Of a DNA stretch of 56,572 bases, positions 1 through 56,388 are shown piece after piece. The stretch is from NCBI RefSeq assembly GCF_039536245.1, contig NZ_BAAAYN010000051.1, forward strand, positions 1-56,572, read 5' to 3'. The number at the start of each line of letters is the position of its first letter. The stretch's first letter is position 1. Below the pieces are notes generated by a model that did not search any database, was not told the origin of the DNA, and was given only the letters and a program-made list of their open reading frames with translations. The translations under genes were made by a program, and so were the position numbers. This DNA comes from Cryptosporangium minutisporangium (GTDB taxonomy: Bacteria; Actinomycetota; Actinomycetes; Mycobacteriales; Cryptosporangiaceae).

Positions 1-1581
1 GGCGCCGGAGCGGTACCGGCCGATCCGGACGGTGGCCGTCCGCGCCCGCTCCCCGCGCTCCGCCTGGAAGCCGCCGAGGCCGCGCTCGCGGCGGGTGACA
101 CCGCGGGCTGCCGCCGGATGCTGACCGACGACGCGGCGACCGCTCCGGGTGACCGGGTACGCGCCGCAGTGCTGCGGGCCGAGGCGCTGCTGCAGGGCGG
201 CGCCGCCGCGGAGGCGTTGGACGCGGTGTCCGCGGTCTCCGCGAACGGGGCGCCGGGCGTCTTGCGGGCCGAGCACACCCGGGTGTCGCTGCTCGCGGCG
301 TTGAGCGCCGATCCGTCCGGTGCCCTGGCCCGCGCCGACGAGGTCCCACCAGAGCTGGCCGGCTACCCGGCGGTGCGGGTCGCGCTCGCGGCGCTCGTCG
401 CCCGGGACCGGCGGGAGGGCTGGGTGGACGGGCTGTCGGCGGCCGTGACCGCCGCGCTCGCCGACGGTCGTCCGGTGGACGCCTGGTGGAGCGGCTGGCT
501 ACTCACCGAGCACCTGCTGGCCGACGGCCGGATCGCGGAGGCGAACGGCGTCGCGGGGCAGTACCGGGCCGCGTGCGCCGGTCAGCTCGCGTACAGCTGG
601 GAGACCCGGTTCGCCGCCGCGGAGCTGTGGTGCGGGGCGCTGCTCGGCGCCGACCTGGACACCGTCGTCCGGAGCGCGGTCGACCTCCTCGATCGGACGC
701 TGCCCGGCCAGGCCCGCAGTTACGCGCTGGCCGCAGCGTCGCTGGCGCTGGCCGACACCGGCGCGCTGGCCCCGGCGCGGACCCGGCTCGACCGGGACCC
801 GGCCGCTCGGGCCGCCACCGGACGGGGGCCGGGGCCCGAGGTGGTGCGCTGGGTGGACCGCGAGGTGGCCTGGCTCGACGGGCAGCCGGACCGAGCCCTG
901 GACGCGACCGGCGGCGGCCGGCTCGCCGGAGGGCTGGGCGCCGTCACCGCCCAGTGGGCGCGGCACGACCTGGGCGCGTCCGAGCCGGGTCAGAACGCTC
1001 GGCACCGTCTGCTGCCGGTGCGGGCGACGTTGTCGGCTTGGGCGGGCGTCGAGGGCGGGGACACGGCGACCGGGAGCGGCGAGTCGGATCAGGACGGCAC
1101 CGGACCCGGTGCCCCCGTGCCCCGGGGCACCGGGCCGGGCGCCGGGGCCCCGGCGGTCACCGCGTTCGAGGCCGCTGCGGCGCTCTGGCAGGGCAGCGCA
1201 CTGCGAGAGCAGATCCGGTGCCTGCTCGCCGCCGGCCTCTCCACGCCGGACGCCGACCGGGCCGTGCCACCCCTGCTGGCTGCGGAGAAGTACGCCGAGC
1301 ACGCCGGGCTCACCGTCCTGCTCGGCCGCGTACACCGGGCACTTCGCCGGTTCTCGGTCCGCCGGGCGACGATCGACCGCAGCCGCACCAGCACGCTGAC
1401 CGCCCGCGAGCGGGAGGTCCTCGCGCTGGTCGCGGCCGGGGAGCCGACCCGGCGCATCGCGGGCCAGCTCGGGATCTCCCGGGAGACGGTCGAGACGCAC
1501 GTCCGGGCCGGGATGCGGAAGCTCGGCGCCCGTACCCGCACCGAGGCGGCGACGCTCGTCCTCGGCGGGGGCACCACGTGA
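1..1581 (+). CDS. LuxR-family transcriptional regulator (5' end outside window)
   Basis: The frame is open from base 1, so the first methionine at 118 is probably internal and the gene begins upstream. The visible ~527 residues are Ala/Leu-rich and helical, as in the TPR-like sensor segments of large LuxR/MalT-type regulators. They end in a clear LuxR/GerE helix-turn-helix: LTAREREVLALVAAGEPTRR, then a recognition helix around ISRETVETHV. A Gly/Pro-rich linker lies near 1080-1160. The start of the next gene overlaps the stop codon (GTGA), so the two are translationally coupled. The ligand and any ATPase domain cannot be judged because the N-terminus is missing. Family assignment rests on the C-terminal HTH. 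Confidence 0.85.
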   Translation, partial: GAGAVPADPDGGRPRPLPALRLEAAEAALAAGDTAGCRRMLTDDAATAPGDRVRAAVLRAEALLQGGAAAEALDAVSAVSANGAPGVLRAEHTRVSLLAALSADPSGALARADEVPPELAGYPAVRVALAALVARDRREGWVDGLSAAVTAALADGRPVDAWWSGWLLTEHLLADGRIAEANGVAGQYRAACAGQLAYSWETRFAAAELWCGALLGADLDTVVRSAVDLLDRTLPGQARSYALAAASLALADTGALAPARTRLDRDPAARAATGRGPGPEVVRWVDREVAWLDGQPDRALDATGGGRLAGGLGAVTAQWARHDLGASEPGQNARHRLLPVRATLSAWAGVEGGDTATGSGESDQDGTGPGAPVPRGTGPGAGAPAVTAFEAAAALWQGSALREQIRCLLAAGLSTPDADRAVPPLLAAEKYAEHAGLTVLLGRVHRALRRFSVRRATIDRSRTSTLTAREREVLALVAAGEPTRRIAGQLGISRETVETHVRAGMRKLGARTRTEAATLVLGGGTT

Positions 1582-2135
1582 CCGGCCGCCCGCTCTACGT
1601 GCTGCGAACGGCCGCGGACCTGGCCGTGGTCGTCCGTCGGCTGGCCGCCGAGGGCTGGGCGGTGCGCACCGGCTTGAGCGTGCCGGACGAGCCCTGGGAT
1701 CTCACCGCGACCAGGACGGTCGTCACCGGACCGGTCGCCGACGACGACGCCGTGGCCGGGGCGGTGCTGGCCGCGGCGCGCGGCGCGGGCGTCGTCGCGG
1801 TGGCCGACGCCGAGAGCACGACCGGCCAGGCGCTGCTCGCCGACCTGGCGCGGATCGGCCCGGTGCGCCGGGCACCACGGACCAGCGACACGAACGGACC
1901 CGCGGCGGCCCGGACGGAACCGGACGCCGGTGGGTCCGGTGACGGGTTACCGCTCACCGACGAGCAGCGGGCCCTGCTCGACCGGCTCGCCGCCGGTGAC
2001 TCGATCGCCGCCGCGGCGGCCGCGGAGTTCCTGTCGCTGCGGACCGCCAACCGCCGCATCGCCGCCGCCCGCGAGGCGCTCGGCGTACGCACCACCCGCC
2101 AAGCCGTCATCGAGTACGTGCGAGCCCGCCGCTGA
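1578..2135 (+). CDS. Small LuxR-like HTH protein coupled to the upstream regulator
   Basis: The GTG start at 1578 overlaps the previous stop by 4 bases. The ~185-residue product has an N-terminal alpha/beta segment (from about LYVLRTAADLAVVVRRLAAE) resembling a degenerate receiver-like or small regulatory fold without an obvious phosphoacceptor Asp. A disordered linker follows. The last ~60 residues look like a GerE-type HTH (LTDEQRALLDRLAAGDSIAA ... LSLRTANRRIAAAREALGVR). It is probably a DNA-binding partner of the upstream protein. A divergent response regulator is the main alternative. No target can be named. Confidence 0.7.
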   Translation: MTGRPLYVLRTAADLAVVVRRLAAEGWAVRTGLSVPDEPWDLTATRTVVTGPVADDDAVAGAVLAAARGAGVVAVADAESTTGQALLADLARIGPVRRAPRTSDTNGPAAARTEPDAGGSGDGLPLTDEQRALLDRLAAGDSIAAAAAAEFLSLRTANRRIAAAREALGVRTTRQAVIEYVRARR

Positions 2136-2149
2136 CGAGTGCCCAGGCC

Positions 2150-2210
2150 GGTTGCCGAGTAGCCAACGCCCTCGGCGCTCCCCAGGCGTTGACTTCTCGT
2201 CAATTCGTCG
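2150..2210. repeat. Left hairpin-type inverted repeat of the DUF559 unit
   Basis: The outer arm 2154-2171 (GCCGAGTAGCCAACGCCC) and the inner arm (GGCGTTGACTTCTCG, 2185-2199) pair with each other as an imperfect hairpin 15 bases long with 13 pairs and a 14-base loop. The whole block is also an inverted copy of 3126-3187: bases 2187-2210 match 3149-3126 at 23 of 24 positions, and 2154-2171 match 3182-3165 at 17 of 18. It starts 15 bases after the stop of the upstream gene, so it may also act as its terminator. Confidence 0.8.
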
Positions 2211-2272
2211 GCGCAGACGGTGCCTGTGGATGACGTGAGCGGTACCTTCGGCGGCTGCGCCACGCTCTTGCG

Positions 2273-3136
2273 GTGGGAGATGTGCGCCAGCTCCGGGGGC
2301 GGGTGTTCCGGGGATCCGATGCGGTCCGCTGTGGGCTGCTGACCGCTCGTCAGCTACAGGGACAGGCGTGGCACCGGCTGAATCGCGACGTGTACGCCGA
2401 CGCGGCGTTGCCGGTCACCCATCGGCTGCGGTGCGAGGGCGCGATGCTGTTGCTGCCGCAGAGCAGTGTGCTGACCGGACGCTCGGCAGCGTGCGTGCGC
2501 GGACTGCCGCTCGGCGACTGCGATGATCCGGTCCTGGCCATTGCTCCGCCCGGAACACGCAGCAGCGCGATCGCCGGTGTCCGGTTACGTCGGGCGGCGC
2601 TCGAGCCGCACGAGATTCGGTGCGGACGGTTACCGACGACCGTCCCGGCCCGAACGGCTTGGGAGATCGCCCGGGAGCCGGACCTGGTCGAGGCGGTGGT
2701 CGCAATCGACGTATTGCTGCGCCATCGCCATGTGCGCCCCGCCCAGCTGGCCGAACTGGCCGCAGCCCACCCCTACAGCCGGGCGGCGCGGGCCATCGGG
2801 CTGGCCGACGGGCGCGCCGAATCCCCGCAGGAATCCCGGACCCGGGTGCGACTCGTGCTCGCCGGCCTTCCGCCCCCGGTGCCGCAGTTCGAGGTGTGGG
2901 CTGGCGGCACGTTCCTCGGCCGCGTCGACTTCGCCTGGCCCGAGCATCGTGTCGTGCTGGAGTACGACGGGTTCTGGCACGCGGAGAAACGTCAATTCCT
3001 CCGCGATCGGCGGCGGTTGAACGGCCTGGTCAGCGACGGATGGACCGTCCTGCACGCCACCGCAGCCGACCTGGAGGACGACGAGGCTTTCGCGAGGCTG
3101 GTCGCGTTGATCCGGATCTCGCTAGCGACGAATTGA
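2273..3136 (+). CDS. DUF559 / Vsr-like nuclease-fold protein with AbiEi-type N-terminus
   Basis: 287 residues from GTG. The N-terminal ~60 residues (LLTARQLQGQAWHRLNRDVY) resemble the winged-helix start of AbiEi-type antitoxins. The C-terminal ~90 residues are DUF559, a very-short-patch-repair endonuclease-like fold. The PD-(D/E)xK-type signature is visible as GRVDFAW followed by VVLEYDGFWHA, with a conserved Arg-rich helix (FLRDRRRLNG) and the strand GWTVLHATAADLED. The biological role of DUF559 proteins is not established. The last codons (ATN then stop) lie inside the right inverted repeat. The gene stands alone between two hairpin repeats and between convergent neighbours, which suggests an insertion-like unit. 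Confidence 0.82.
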   Translation: MGDVRQLRGRVFRGSDAVRCGLLTARQLQGQAWHRLNRDVYADAALPVTHRLRCEGAMLLLPQSSVLTGRSAACVRGLPLGDCDDPVLAIAPPGTRSSAIAGVRLRRAALEPHEIRCGRLPTTVPARTAWEIAREPDLVEAVVAIDVLLRHRHVRPAQLAELAAAHPYSRAARAIGLADGRAESPQESRTRVRLVLAGLPPPVPQFEVWAGGTFLGRVDFAWPEHRVVLEYDGFWHAEKRQFLRDRRRLNGLVSDGWTVLHATAADLEDDEAFARLVALIRISLATN

Positions 3137-3187
3137 CGAGAAGGCAACGTTCGCCGGGGATCTCGGGCGTTGGCTTCTCGGCAAACC
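3126..3187. repeat. Right hairpin-type inverted repeat of the DUF559 unit
   Basis: This block is the inverted counterpart of 2150-2210 and is itself a hairpin: CGAGAAGGCAACG (3137-3149) pairs with CGTTGGCTTCTCG (3168-3180), 12 of 13 bases, across an 18-base loop. It overlaps the stop codon of the DUF559 gene (3134-3136) and ends next to the stop codon of the convergent flavoprotein gene (3189). It can serve as a bidirectional terminator. No obvious target-site duplication is visible outside the two blocks. Confidence 0.8.
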
Positions 3188-3188
3188 G

Positions 3189-4640
3189 TCAGCGGCCGTA
3201 GGTCTCCAGGAGGCGCAGCCAGATCTCGCTGATGGTGGGGAACGAGGGCACGGCGTGCCAGAGGCGGTCGAGGGGCACTTCGCCGACGATCGCGATCGTG
3301 GCGGCGTGCACCAGCTCCGCCGCCGTCGCCCCGACGAACGTGGCGCCGACGATCACGCCGCGGGACGTGTCGACCACGAGCTTCGCCCGGCCCGAGTACC
3401 CGTCCGCGTAGAGCGAAGCCCCGGCCACCTGCCCCAGGTCGTACTCCACCGCCCGCACCGACAGGCCCGCGGCACGCGCCTCCGCCTCGGTCCGGCCGAC
3501 CGCGCCGACCTCCGGATCGGTGAACACCGCCTGCGGCACCGCCGCGTGATCGGCGGTGGCCGCGTACCGGCTCCACGGTGTCGGCTCCGCCGCCGCACCG
3601 CCCGCCCTGGCCACGATCGCGGCACCGCACGCCCGGGCCTGGTACTTCCCCATGTGGGTGAGGAGCGCACGCCCGTTGACGTCGCCCGCGGCGTAGAGCC
3701 AGTCGACACCCGCCACTCGGCAGCTGTCATCGACACTGATCCCGGCCCGATCGAGCCCGGTCAGACCGACCGTCTCCAGGCCGAGCCCGTCGGTGGCCGG
3801 CGCCCGTCCGGTGGCCACCAGCACCTCGTCCGCGCGGACCGTGCGGCTCCCGTCCCCGTTCGCCGCGTCGGTCACCTCGATCCGGACGCCCGCGTCGTCC
3901 CGCTCGACCGTGGTGACCGTCGCCCCCAGCCGGACGTCGACCCCCGCCTTCCGCAGGCCGGCGACGACCGCCTCACCCGCGAACGGCTCCAGGCGCGGCA
4001 GCAGACCGTTCCCCCGGGCGATCAGCGTCACCCGACTGCCCAGCGCGGCGAACGCGGTGGCCATCTCGCAGCCGACGACGCCCCCGCCGAGTACCGCCAG
4101 CTCGTCCGGGATCGCGGTCACCGACGTCGCGTCGCGGCTGGTCCACGGATCCGCCTCGGCCAGGCCGGGAACGTCGGGCACGGTCGGGCGGCTCCCGGTG
4201 GCCAGGACGACGGCGTGCCGCGCGGTGACCCGGCGCACGCCGCCGTCCCGCGTCCGCACCTCGACCAGCCGCTCGCCGACCAGCCGCGCGGTGCCACGGA
4301 CCAGGGCGATACCGACCGAGTCGAGCCAGCCGACCTGCGAGTCGTCCGACCAGTTGTGGGTGAACGCCGTGCGGCGTTCCAGCACTTGTTCCGGGTTCGG
4401 CCCGCCACGGACCGCGGTCGCCGCCCCGTCGACGCGGCGAGCGTCCGCCAGCGCGGCGACCGGGCGGAGCAGGGCCTTGCTCGGGATGCACGCCCAGTAG
4501 GAGCACTCGCCGCCGACCAGCTCCCGCTCGACGACGAGCGCCGTCAGACCGCCGCGGACGACCTGGTCGGCTACGTTCTCCCCCACCGGCCCGGCACCGA
4601 CGACGATCACGTCGTACTCGTCCCCGCCCGACACCGTCAT
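3189..4640 (-). CDS. Class I pyridine nucleotide-disulfide oxidoreductase (dihydrolipoamide dehydrogenase/mercuric reductase-like)
   Basis: ATG at 4640 gives 483 residues, normal for the family; the open frame upstream of it has no homology-like content. In order: an FAD-binding GAGPVGENVA motif near residue 15, the redox-active site GGECSYWACIPSKALLRP (Cys-x4-Cys), a central NAD(P)-binding GGGVVGCEMATAFA, the second FAD motif YAAGDVNGRALLTHMGKYQA, and a dimerisation domain ending in HAVPSFPTISEIW. The SYWA spacer between the cysteines and the HAVPSFPTISE end differ from true dihydrolipoamide dehydrogenases (LNVG; HPT.SE). The substrate is therefore uncertain; quinone, mycothione or another disulfide are possible. 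A 40-bp periodic array lies about 100 bases upstream. Confidence 0.9.
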   Translation of the reverse strand: MTVSGGDEYDVIVVGAGPVGENVADQVVRGGLTALVVERELVGGECSYWACIPSKALLRPVAALADARRVDGAATAVRGGPNPEQVLERRTAFTHNWSDDSQVGWLDSVGIALVRGTARLVGERLVEVRTRDGGVRRVTARHAVVLATGSRPTVPDVPGLAEADPWTSRDATSVTAIPDELAVLGGGVVGCEMATAFAALGSRVTLIARGNGLLPRLEPFAGEAVVAGLRKAGVDVRLGATVTTVERDDAGVRIEVTDAANGDGSRTVRADEVLVATGRAPATDGLGLETVGLTGLDRAGISVDDSCRVAGVDWLYAAGDVNGRALLTHMGKYQARACGAAIVARAGGAAAEPTPWSRYAATADHAAVPQAVFTDPEVGAVGRTEAEARAAGLSVRAVEYDLGQVAGASLYADGYSGRAKLVVDTSRGVIVGATFVGATAAELVHAATIAIVGEVPLDRLWHAVPSFPTISEIWLRLLETYGR

Positions 4641-4744
4641 GCTCGCCGCCACCTGTCTCTCCGCCGCGTCCGGCCGCGCACGCGGCCGAGCGCACGGTAT
4701 CCAATCCGCGCACCGGTCACTGCACGTGACGCCGAGCGTCGGCG

Positions 4745-4995
4745 CGGCGACTCTCCCGAGAACCCACCGCTCGCCCCCGACCCGACGTGGCCTTCCCGAA
4801 AACCCGCCCCGCAGCGCCAAGAGGACGCAGCTTCCCCCGAACCACTCTCACGGCGGCTTTCCCGAAAACCACCACTCAGCCGCCGGCTCGACGTGGTCTT
4901 CCCGAAAGACCACCTCTCAGCGCCCGGCAGGATGTGGCCTTCCCGAAAATCAACCTCCCAGCGCGCGGCGGAACGTGGCCTTCCCGGAAATGTGC
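4745..4995. repeat. Degenerate ~40-bp periodic array with CCCGAA cores
   Basis: This occupies most of the 370-base gap between the flavoprotein start and the next gene (4641-5010). Seven units carry the core CTTCCCGAAAA or a close variant. The CCCGAA hexamers start at 4755, 4795, 4836, 4861, 4901, 4942 and 4983, with spacings of 40, 41, 25, 40, 41 and 41. Best-preserved units read ACGTGG(C/T)CTTCCCGAAA followed by ACC(A/T)C and CAGCGCCCGGC. The unit at 4893-4913 is a clean hairpin (GTGGTCTT...AAGACCAC). The period is not a multiple of three, so it is not a coding repeat. Confidence 0.85.
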
Positions 4996-38080: not shown

Positions 38081-38097
38081 GGCGAACGTCCGCTGTT

Positions 38098-38147
38098 TGA
38101 CGACAAGTCAACGTGCCCGACGGCCTGGGCGTGTTGGGTTCTCGTCA
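38098..38147. repeat. Solo hairpin related to the DUF559 flanking repeats
   Basis: TGACGACAAGTCAACGTGCC (38098-38117, plus C) pairs imperfectly (16 of 21) with GGGCGTGTTGGGTTCTCGTCA at 38127-38147. The outer part TTCTCGTCAAT followed by CGGCTGTGGATG repeats the arrangement at 2194-2235 (TTCTCGTCAATTCG ... CCTGTGGATGACG) with about 20 bases missing. It lies 18 bases after the lipoprotein stop and before a second terminator. Confidence 0.65.
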
Positions 38148-38204
38148 ATCGGCTGTGGATGTCGGGACGCCGGCGTGCGCACCGAACCACGCCGCCCACG
38201 ACAC

Positions 38205-56341: not shown

Positions 56342-56388
56342 CCGGGAAGTCAACGCGTCACGCGGCTGCGGACGCGTTGACTTCCCGG
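56342..56388. terminator. 18-bp perfect hairpin with the AAGTCAACG core
   Basis: CCGGGAAGTCAACGCGTC (56342-56359) pairs exactly with GACGCGTTGACTTCCCGG (56371-56388) around an 11-base loop, 30 bases after the MFS stop and 20 before the end of the convergent gene. It shares the AAGTCAACG/CGTTGACTT core with the hairpins at 2150-2210 and 38098-38147. Confidence 0.88.

Follow-up and report, generated by a model that had tools for sequence, protein, structure and literature searches.

Palindrome-bracketed DUF559 nuclease genes in Cryptosporangium minutisporangium and related actinobacteria: a candidate mobile unit

Introduction

AbiEi antitoxins are described as binding inverted repeats, with AbiEi proteins occupying pairs of 23-bp inverted repeats (PMC7319586), the homing endonuclease I-Bth0305I is described as dimerizing on nearly 60 bp of DNA (PMC3943268), and the enzyme of the CGTC-type REPs is left open (Di Nocera et al., 2013; PMC3733652). 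A literature search covering few subscription papers found no unit composed of a DUF559 gene and palindromes. To our knowledge, no REP-like system has an enzyme of the EDxHD/Vsr-type nuclease class.

The window analyzed here is a 56,572-nucleotide stretch of C. minutisporangium DNA, near the start of which a DUF559 gene is bracketed by two palindromes. This arrangement is probably one unit of a palindrome-bracketed nuclease element that copies, loses, and flips itself via its own palindromes. Such units occur in many soil actinobacteria, are present, absent, swapped, or flipped at one spot in related species, and look like a small, undescribed mobile element.

Organization of the window unit

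Self-comparison of the window detected two sets of inverted arms, one of 24 nt with 96% identity (2187–2210 and 3126–3149) and one of 20 nt with 95% identity (2152–2171 and 3165–3184), in agreement with the original prediction that the blocks 2150–2210 and 3126–3187 are inverted copies. The blocks were also expected to fold on themselves, and each contains a 52-bp palindrome, TTGnCGAGnAGnCAACG-N18-CGTTGnCTTCTCGnCAA (2152–2203 and 3133–3184, no strand assigned), with 1/200 and 0/200 shuffled sequences folding at least as well as single-stranded DNA. The two palindromes are confirmed as genuine, and chance is ruled out. Their layout is TTG-n-CGAGnAGnCAACG, 18 nt, CGTTGnCTTCTCG-n-CAA; the upstream copy has the arms TTGCCGAGTAGCCAACG and CGTTGACTTCTCGTCAA around its 18-nt spacer, and the downstream copy is inverted relative to it. 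The DUF559 gene (2273–3136, + strand, 287 amino acids) ends inside the right block, as had been noticed, with its TGA stop in the first four bases (TTGA) of the downstream palindrome, and the flanking reading frames stop at 2135 (+) and 3189 (−), which places the unit between convergent stops.

The leader motif CTGTGGATGACG lies at 2224–2235 (+ strand), and its TGTGGA starts 48 nt before the adopted start codon. With start codons chosen by script, TGTGGA occurred within −150 to +40 in 49/77 DUF559 loci and in 7/300 control windows, and it stood at exactly −48 in 26 of the 49 motif-bearing loci, as it does in the window unit. The form CCTGTGGACGAC was seen ∼48 nt upstream of the start codon in many units (L198–L277) and at window 2224–2235, and was not detected in most Micromonospora loci of the 77-locus scan; we take it to resemble a DnaA box.

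The window protein matches Pfam DUF559 at 4.3e-5, PADLOC AbiEi models match it at 6e-9 and the L219 protein at 1.4e-16, and Pfam REase_MTES_1575 matches 49/55 family members; family scans gave DUF559, MTES_1575, AbiEi, and Vsr models and no match to the Y1 (HUH) model. In the predicted structure, residues 1–179 have the AbiEi fold and the nuclease domain (184–286) has the fold of the I-Bth0305I catalytic domain, and the protein is modeled as a predicted AbiEi-like winged-helix DNA-binding part joined to a predicted EDxHD/Vsr-type nuclease. Residues E187, D219, H236, and D245 are invariant across 55 members, and are assumed, from their spacing, to be the EDxHD positions. In an alignment with I-Bth0305I, D245 lies opposite D and H236 opposite A, the latter possibly, we presume, the mark of a mutated crystal construct. 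The gene is under purifying selection, and a plasmid search with the window protein returned 3 records among 72,556, with 31–34% identity.

Matched palindromes around other DUF559 genes

Bracketing was scored as the best match between the 400 bp upstream and the 400 bp downstream of each gene. In the named set, comprising 76 usable loci of 80 (four were too short), 39 genes reached a score of at least 35 and 43 reached at least 30, compared with 0 and 3 of 453 control windows from the same loci. In the order-wide set, comprising 28 usable loci of 29 (one was too short), 14 genes reached at least 35 and 14 at least 30, compared with 0 and 10 of 224 controls from closer-spaced windows, so that only the cut at 35 is clean in this set. 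The objection that the pairs are a common terminator used by chance failed on these controls. At least three loci belong to both sets (L075=L219, L076=L200, and L081=L212), and genes below 35, without a strong matched pair, number 37/76 and 14/28, respectively. A further control, pairing upstream flanks with the downstream flanks of other loci, was dropped (99th percentile 195, 0/80 observed above it) because related loci have palindromes in common, which spoiled it.

Matched pairs, in inverted or direct orientation, were seen in Geodermatophilus, Blastococcus, Modestobacter, Klenkia, Micromonospora, and Catellatospora. The suggested REP/RAYT-like unit of nuclease plus palindromes is found across nine of the order's family codes, the window's own family among them. 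A generic scan of the 29 order-wide loci found look-alike palindromes flanking ∼12 genes, each with its own sequence (by eye). Within the genus, high pair scores were obtained for the window unit (45.5), own-genome copies C17 (48.5) and C31 (32.5), and G001 C1 (47), and low ones for G001 C38, G001 C18, G002 C2, and G002 C1 (11.5–15) and the split G003 copy (14); the test covered close full-length own copies, leaving out the partial C44 and C46 and the 26%-identical C7. The idea that other DUF559 genes are flanked as well thus stood in part, C17 and C31 having matched pairs of other sequences and 4/8 of the genus genes examined having none. The window palindrome is not a general DUF559 partner, and units have palindromes of their own. 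An interim conclusion that other DUF559 genes lack palindromes was rejected, its search having used only the window's own sequence, and generic scans reversed the outcome. In G001, a sensitive model search placed the gene in L150 between two 52-bp palindromes whose sequence is not that of the window pair, and the right one again holds the stop codon.

Dispersed copies of the palindromes

A fixed-spacing pattern with ≤3 mismatches detected 14 palindromic sites in the own genome, and its reversed control detected 0. The covariance model R1, built from these 14 copies, matched at E<0.01 in 43 distinct own-genome places (the 14 included), 13 in G001, 1 in G002, and none in G003, all lower bounds with rough E-values, 150 first-look candidates having been scored per genome. 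Two solitary members lie in the window itself, one of the same family as the window pair (38097–38148, no strand assigned) and one more diverged (56343–56387, likewise), with 45 bp between inner arm ends; in scans permitting other lengths, clear copies have 44 bp between these ends, and one has 45. The inspected solitary palindromes lie mostly between unrelated genes, and at C8 and C38 a frame from a simple gene caller runs across the palindrome. The C18 and C25 copies are nearly identical, with ∼80 bp in common (by eye), and C12 carries a pair of near-identical palindromes that face the same way at a distance of 823 bp (L063, 4072–4115 and 4895–4938), which are also alike over ∼25 bp outside the palindrome and between which no DUF559 gene was noticed.

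The 18-nt spacer is variable in sequence and near-fixed in length, and the arms are conserved as sequence, which for the window family makes protein-bound half-sites likelier than a covarying stem. A hairpin kept by compensatory change was rejected, since covariation in the 14 copies did not exceed that of column shuffles (0.084, with 124/500 shuffles as high). An integron attC site or a GTAG-type REP did not match the consensus when compared by eye.

An exact search with a 20-base version of the window palindrome found 0 stretches in species genomes (the own genome possibly excluded), and among 60 relatives, a single 3-mismatch site was detected in each of G002 and G048. One Micromonospora palindrome type is present in 37/101 genomes with 1–13 exact copies each, with reversed controls at 0 throughout. 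Among the matches listed, its copies are 31–33 bp long, though 26–40 was permitted, and form unit-like pairs ∼1.07–1.2 kb apart in G199, G217, G260, G232, and G192, the others being single. In a separate observation on G001 C39 (L175 and L179), several 52-bp TTGACGGGAAATCGGCG palindromes are embedded in longer repeats at distances of 486 and 912 bp from one another, and no DUF559 gene was called at these places.

Empty, filled, and flipped sites

In Geodermatophilaceae, one site that can hold a unit has a flavoprotein oxidoreductase on one side and MarR on the other (both named by eye). The site was located via the oxidoreductase, which was matched in 104/112 genomes with 113 matches (some genomes have a second copy elsewhere), and 90 of these matches were read (30 + 60 loci). 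A full DUF559 gene was present at 34/90 loci (32 on the minus and 2 on the plus strand), and the other loci comprised 10 with a partial DUF559, 28 with MarR and without DUF559, and 18 with neither in reach. The pair score reached 25 in 23/34 full units. At a second site, flank-cluster membership assigns 7 loci to one orientation of the gene and 10 to the opposite one.

Filled sites have a palindrome on each side, and empty sites with a single palindrome also occur. Among 19 short empty gaps, palindromes were detected in G112, G100, and G113 (one each) and G064 (two), with 0/200 shuffles as good in each case; eight gaps (32–86 bp) had no palindrome beyond shuffles, and those of the remaining seven were not clearly beyond shuffles. 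Given the eight short gaps without one, a pre-existing palindrome may not be needed. The G161 gap, which is among the seven unclear ones (21/200 shuffles as good), holds two Modestobacter-type palindromes and remnants of both gene ends (by eye). The single G106 palindrome, which is imperfect (38/200 shuffles as good), can be aligned with either end of the G056 unit, the match covering the left palindrome plus the flank outside it in one case and the right palindrome plus the flank outside it in the other; the filled site therefore differs by the gene and one palindrome. Apparent decayed units with palindromes, a leader motif, or gene fragments, and no full gene, were seen in L306 (G161), L366 (G108), and L304 (G102).

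The empty site with a single palindrome that the original prediction anticipated was thus found at another site and not at that of the window, which is no simple empty or filled site and where relatives are inverted. In G002 and G003, a LuxR-type pair and an oxidoreductase are ∼13 kb apart in another relative orientation, and the oxidoreductase end adjoins an azoreductase-like gene (names by eye), which the own genome carries on C56, where its neighbor is the gene found after the LuxR pair of G002. Over window 1–3189 and L140, L141, L142, and L160, this gene order implies an inversion of ∼13 kb compared with G002 and G003, which brought the LuxR pair next to the oxidoreductase, and the unit lies at the junction so formed. 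At the second junction (C56), no palindrome of the window family was seen. Imperfect repeats with CTTCCCGAAAAC motifs were also seen by eye at window ∼4740–4990, upstream of the oxidoreductase gene.

Co-change of nuclease and palindrome types

Co-change was examined in the 29 of 34 full units that have MarR, with palindromes compared left against right between species. Palindrome similarity correlated with DUF559 identity when MarR identity was allowed for (partial rho 0.31, p 0.001), and the reverse partial correlation, of palindrome with MarR given DUF559, was 0.05 (p 0.29). For example, Modestobacter G159 and G162 have one DUF559 type (78%) and one palindrome type (32.5), and G048, G158, G040, G143, and G149 have another of each (84–94% and 31–36.5). 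Between these groups, DUF559 identity is 64–67% and palindrome similarity 13.8–23.5, while the MarR part is 95–100% identical. The link is loose in Geodermatophilus, where palindromes are alike (38.5–52.2) in G111/G120, G118/G120, and G103/G120 at a DUF559 identity of 64–70%. Overall, palindrome type appears to follow nuclease type.

Discussion

In the proposed mechanism, the flanking palindromes would be copies of the protein's own recognition site, in which a dimer would bind two inverted half-sites a fixed distance apart. Once such a site had been cut, its repair could place a copy of the unit at a vacant site or palindrome, delete the gene by recombination between its two palindromes so that one is left, or occasionally flip the gene. 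Solitary palindromes would then be vacant sites, relics, or short non-autonomous copies. Support at the level of sequence comes from the bracketing, matched pairs, unit-specific palindrome type, and dispersed copies, from empty and filled sites, unit-type exchange, and the occurrence of both orientations, and, for the gene and its protein, from purifying selection, the predicted fold, and the conserved acid and histidine residues. Palindrome binding and cutting by the protein, and the role of these activities in driving the site changes, are inferred. By analogy, a 50–80-bp palindrome with two half-sites and a spacer of near-fixed length would fit a dimer of an AbiEi–nuclease fusion. Against a mobile element, two intact flanking sites expose the gene to its own nuclease, unlike in classical homing genes; in addition, the comparison is between copies from different species, so that any moves would be old and indirect.

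A resident gene could instead use the palindromes as operator and terminator: the AbiEi-like part would repress the gene from the upstream copy, the downstream copy would end transcription, and nothing would move by design. AbiEi antitoxins repress their own promoters through inverted-repeat binding (PMC7319586), and the purifying selection, the leader motif at −48, and the apparent genus synteny of own C17 with G001 C38 and own C31 with G002 C2 (gene order by eye) also suit this explanation. It is nonetheless unlikely, as autorepression leaves unexplained the matched copy over the stop codon, the dispersed solitary copies, the palindromes at gene-less sites, and, in near-identical hosts, the different types of gene with palindromes that occupy one site. 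Less probable still is that another enzyme, such as a RAYT-type transposase, moves REP-like palindromes as hairpins and that the DUF559 genes are caught passengers: bracketing and intergenic dispersion resemble REP/RAYT units (PMC2817692, PMC3733652), and C18 and C25 are near-identical dispersed copies, but the bracketed gene belongs to the same nuclease family locus after locus, with position-matched windows as the comparison, and the palindrome type overall seems to follow that nuclease.

The PADLOC AbiEi and Pfam REase_MTES_1575 matches also suit a one-gene defense or toxin–antitoxin-like factor (AbiEi plus a restriction-type nuclease) at stable sites, its palindromes kept alike by gene conversion, which is a very improbable account, as neither empty sites nor both orientations would follow from gene conversion alone. 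That the palindromes are a common bidirectional terminator used by chance is scarcely credible; only tens of bases do separate several solitary copies from a called gene end, but no control window had a matched pair at ≥35 (0/453 and 0/224), which already contradicts it.

The unit may, tentatively, represent a new class of mobile element, with an EDxHD homing-type nuclease, an antitoxin-derived DNA-binding part, and its own palindromic site on both flanks, that would enter and leave intergenic sites in either orientation and scatter solitary palindromes through genomes, with the enzyme changing in step with its palindrome. If so, actinobacterial palindromic repeats would gain a dedicated enzyme, DUF559, a Pfam family of unknown function, would gain a testable role, and the co-varying pairs of enzyme and palindrome would form a natural catalogue of nuclease specificities, in which the DNA specificity of the AbiEi–nuclease fusion could be read by comparison and which might be a source of long-site DNA cutters.

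Comparison with known systems

The closest likeness is to REP/RAYT, in that a nuclease gene lies between two palindrome copies (in the window and for roughly half of the genes scored), the unit palindrome is also dispersed singly, and its type varies between lineages. The enzyme, however, is not a Y1 tyrosine transposase but is predicted to combine an EDxHD/Vsr-type nuclease with an AbiEi-like part, and the palindromes are inverted repeats of ∼50–80 bp with a spacer, in inverted or direct pairs, without a noticed GTAG tag; the enzyme being unrelated to RAYT, the DUF559 unit is not a REP/RAYT member. With I-Bth0305I, an EDxHD homing endonuclease of a phage intron, the nuclease has a predicted catalytic fold in common, but the DUF559 gene is free-standing and chromosomal, has no intron setting, and has a palindrome on either side, apparently in place of an interrupted target, and an AbiEi-like part replaces the phage DNA-binding region. 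Similarly, residues 1–179 are predicted to have the fold of the AbiEi antitoxins of type IV toxin–antitoxin systems (Rv2827c and S. agalactiae AbiEi), from which the window protein differs in the fusion of this part to a nuclease, and it differs from the Vsr mismatch endonuclease in its linkage to palindromes. MITEs are likewise short dispersed inverted-repeat elements with near-identical copies, from which we take the palindromes of DUF559 units to differ in being shorter and in having a partner enzyme that is not a known transposase. The palindrome-bracketed DUF559 unit would be categorically new beside these systems if its nuclease were shown to move it.
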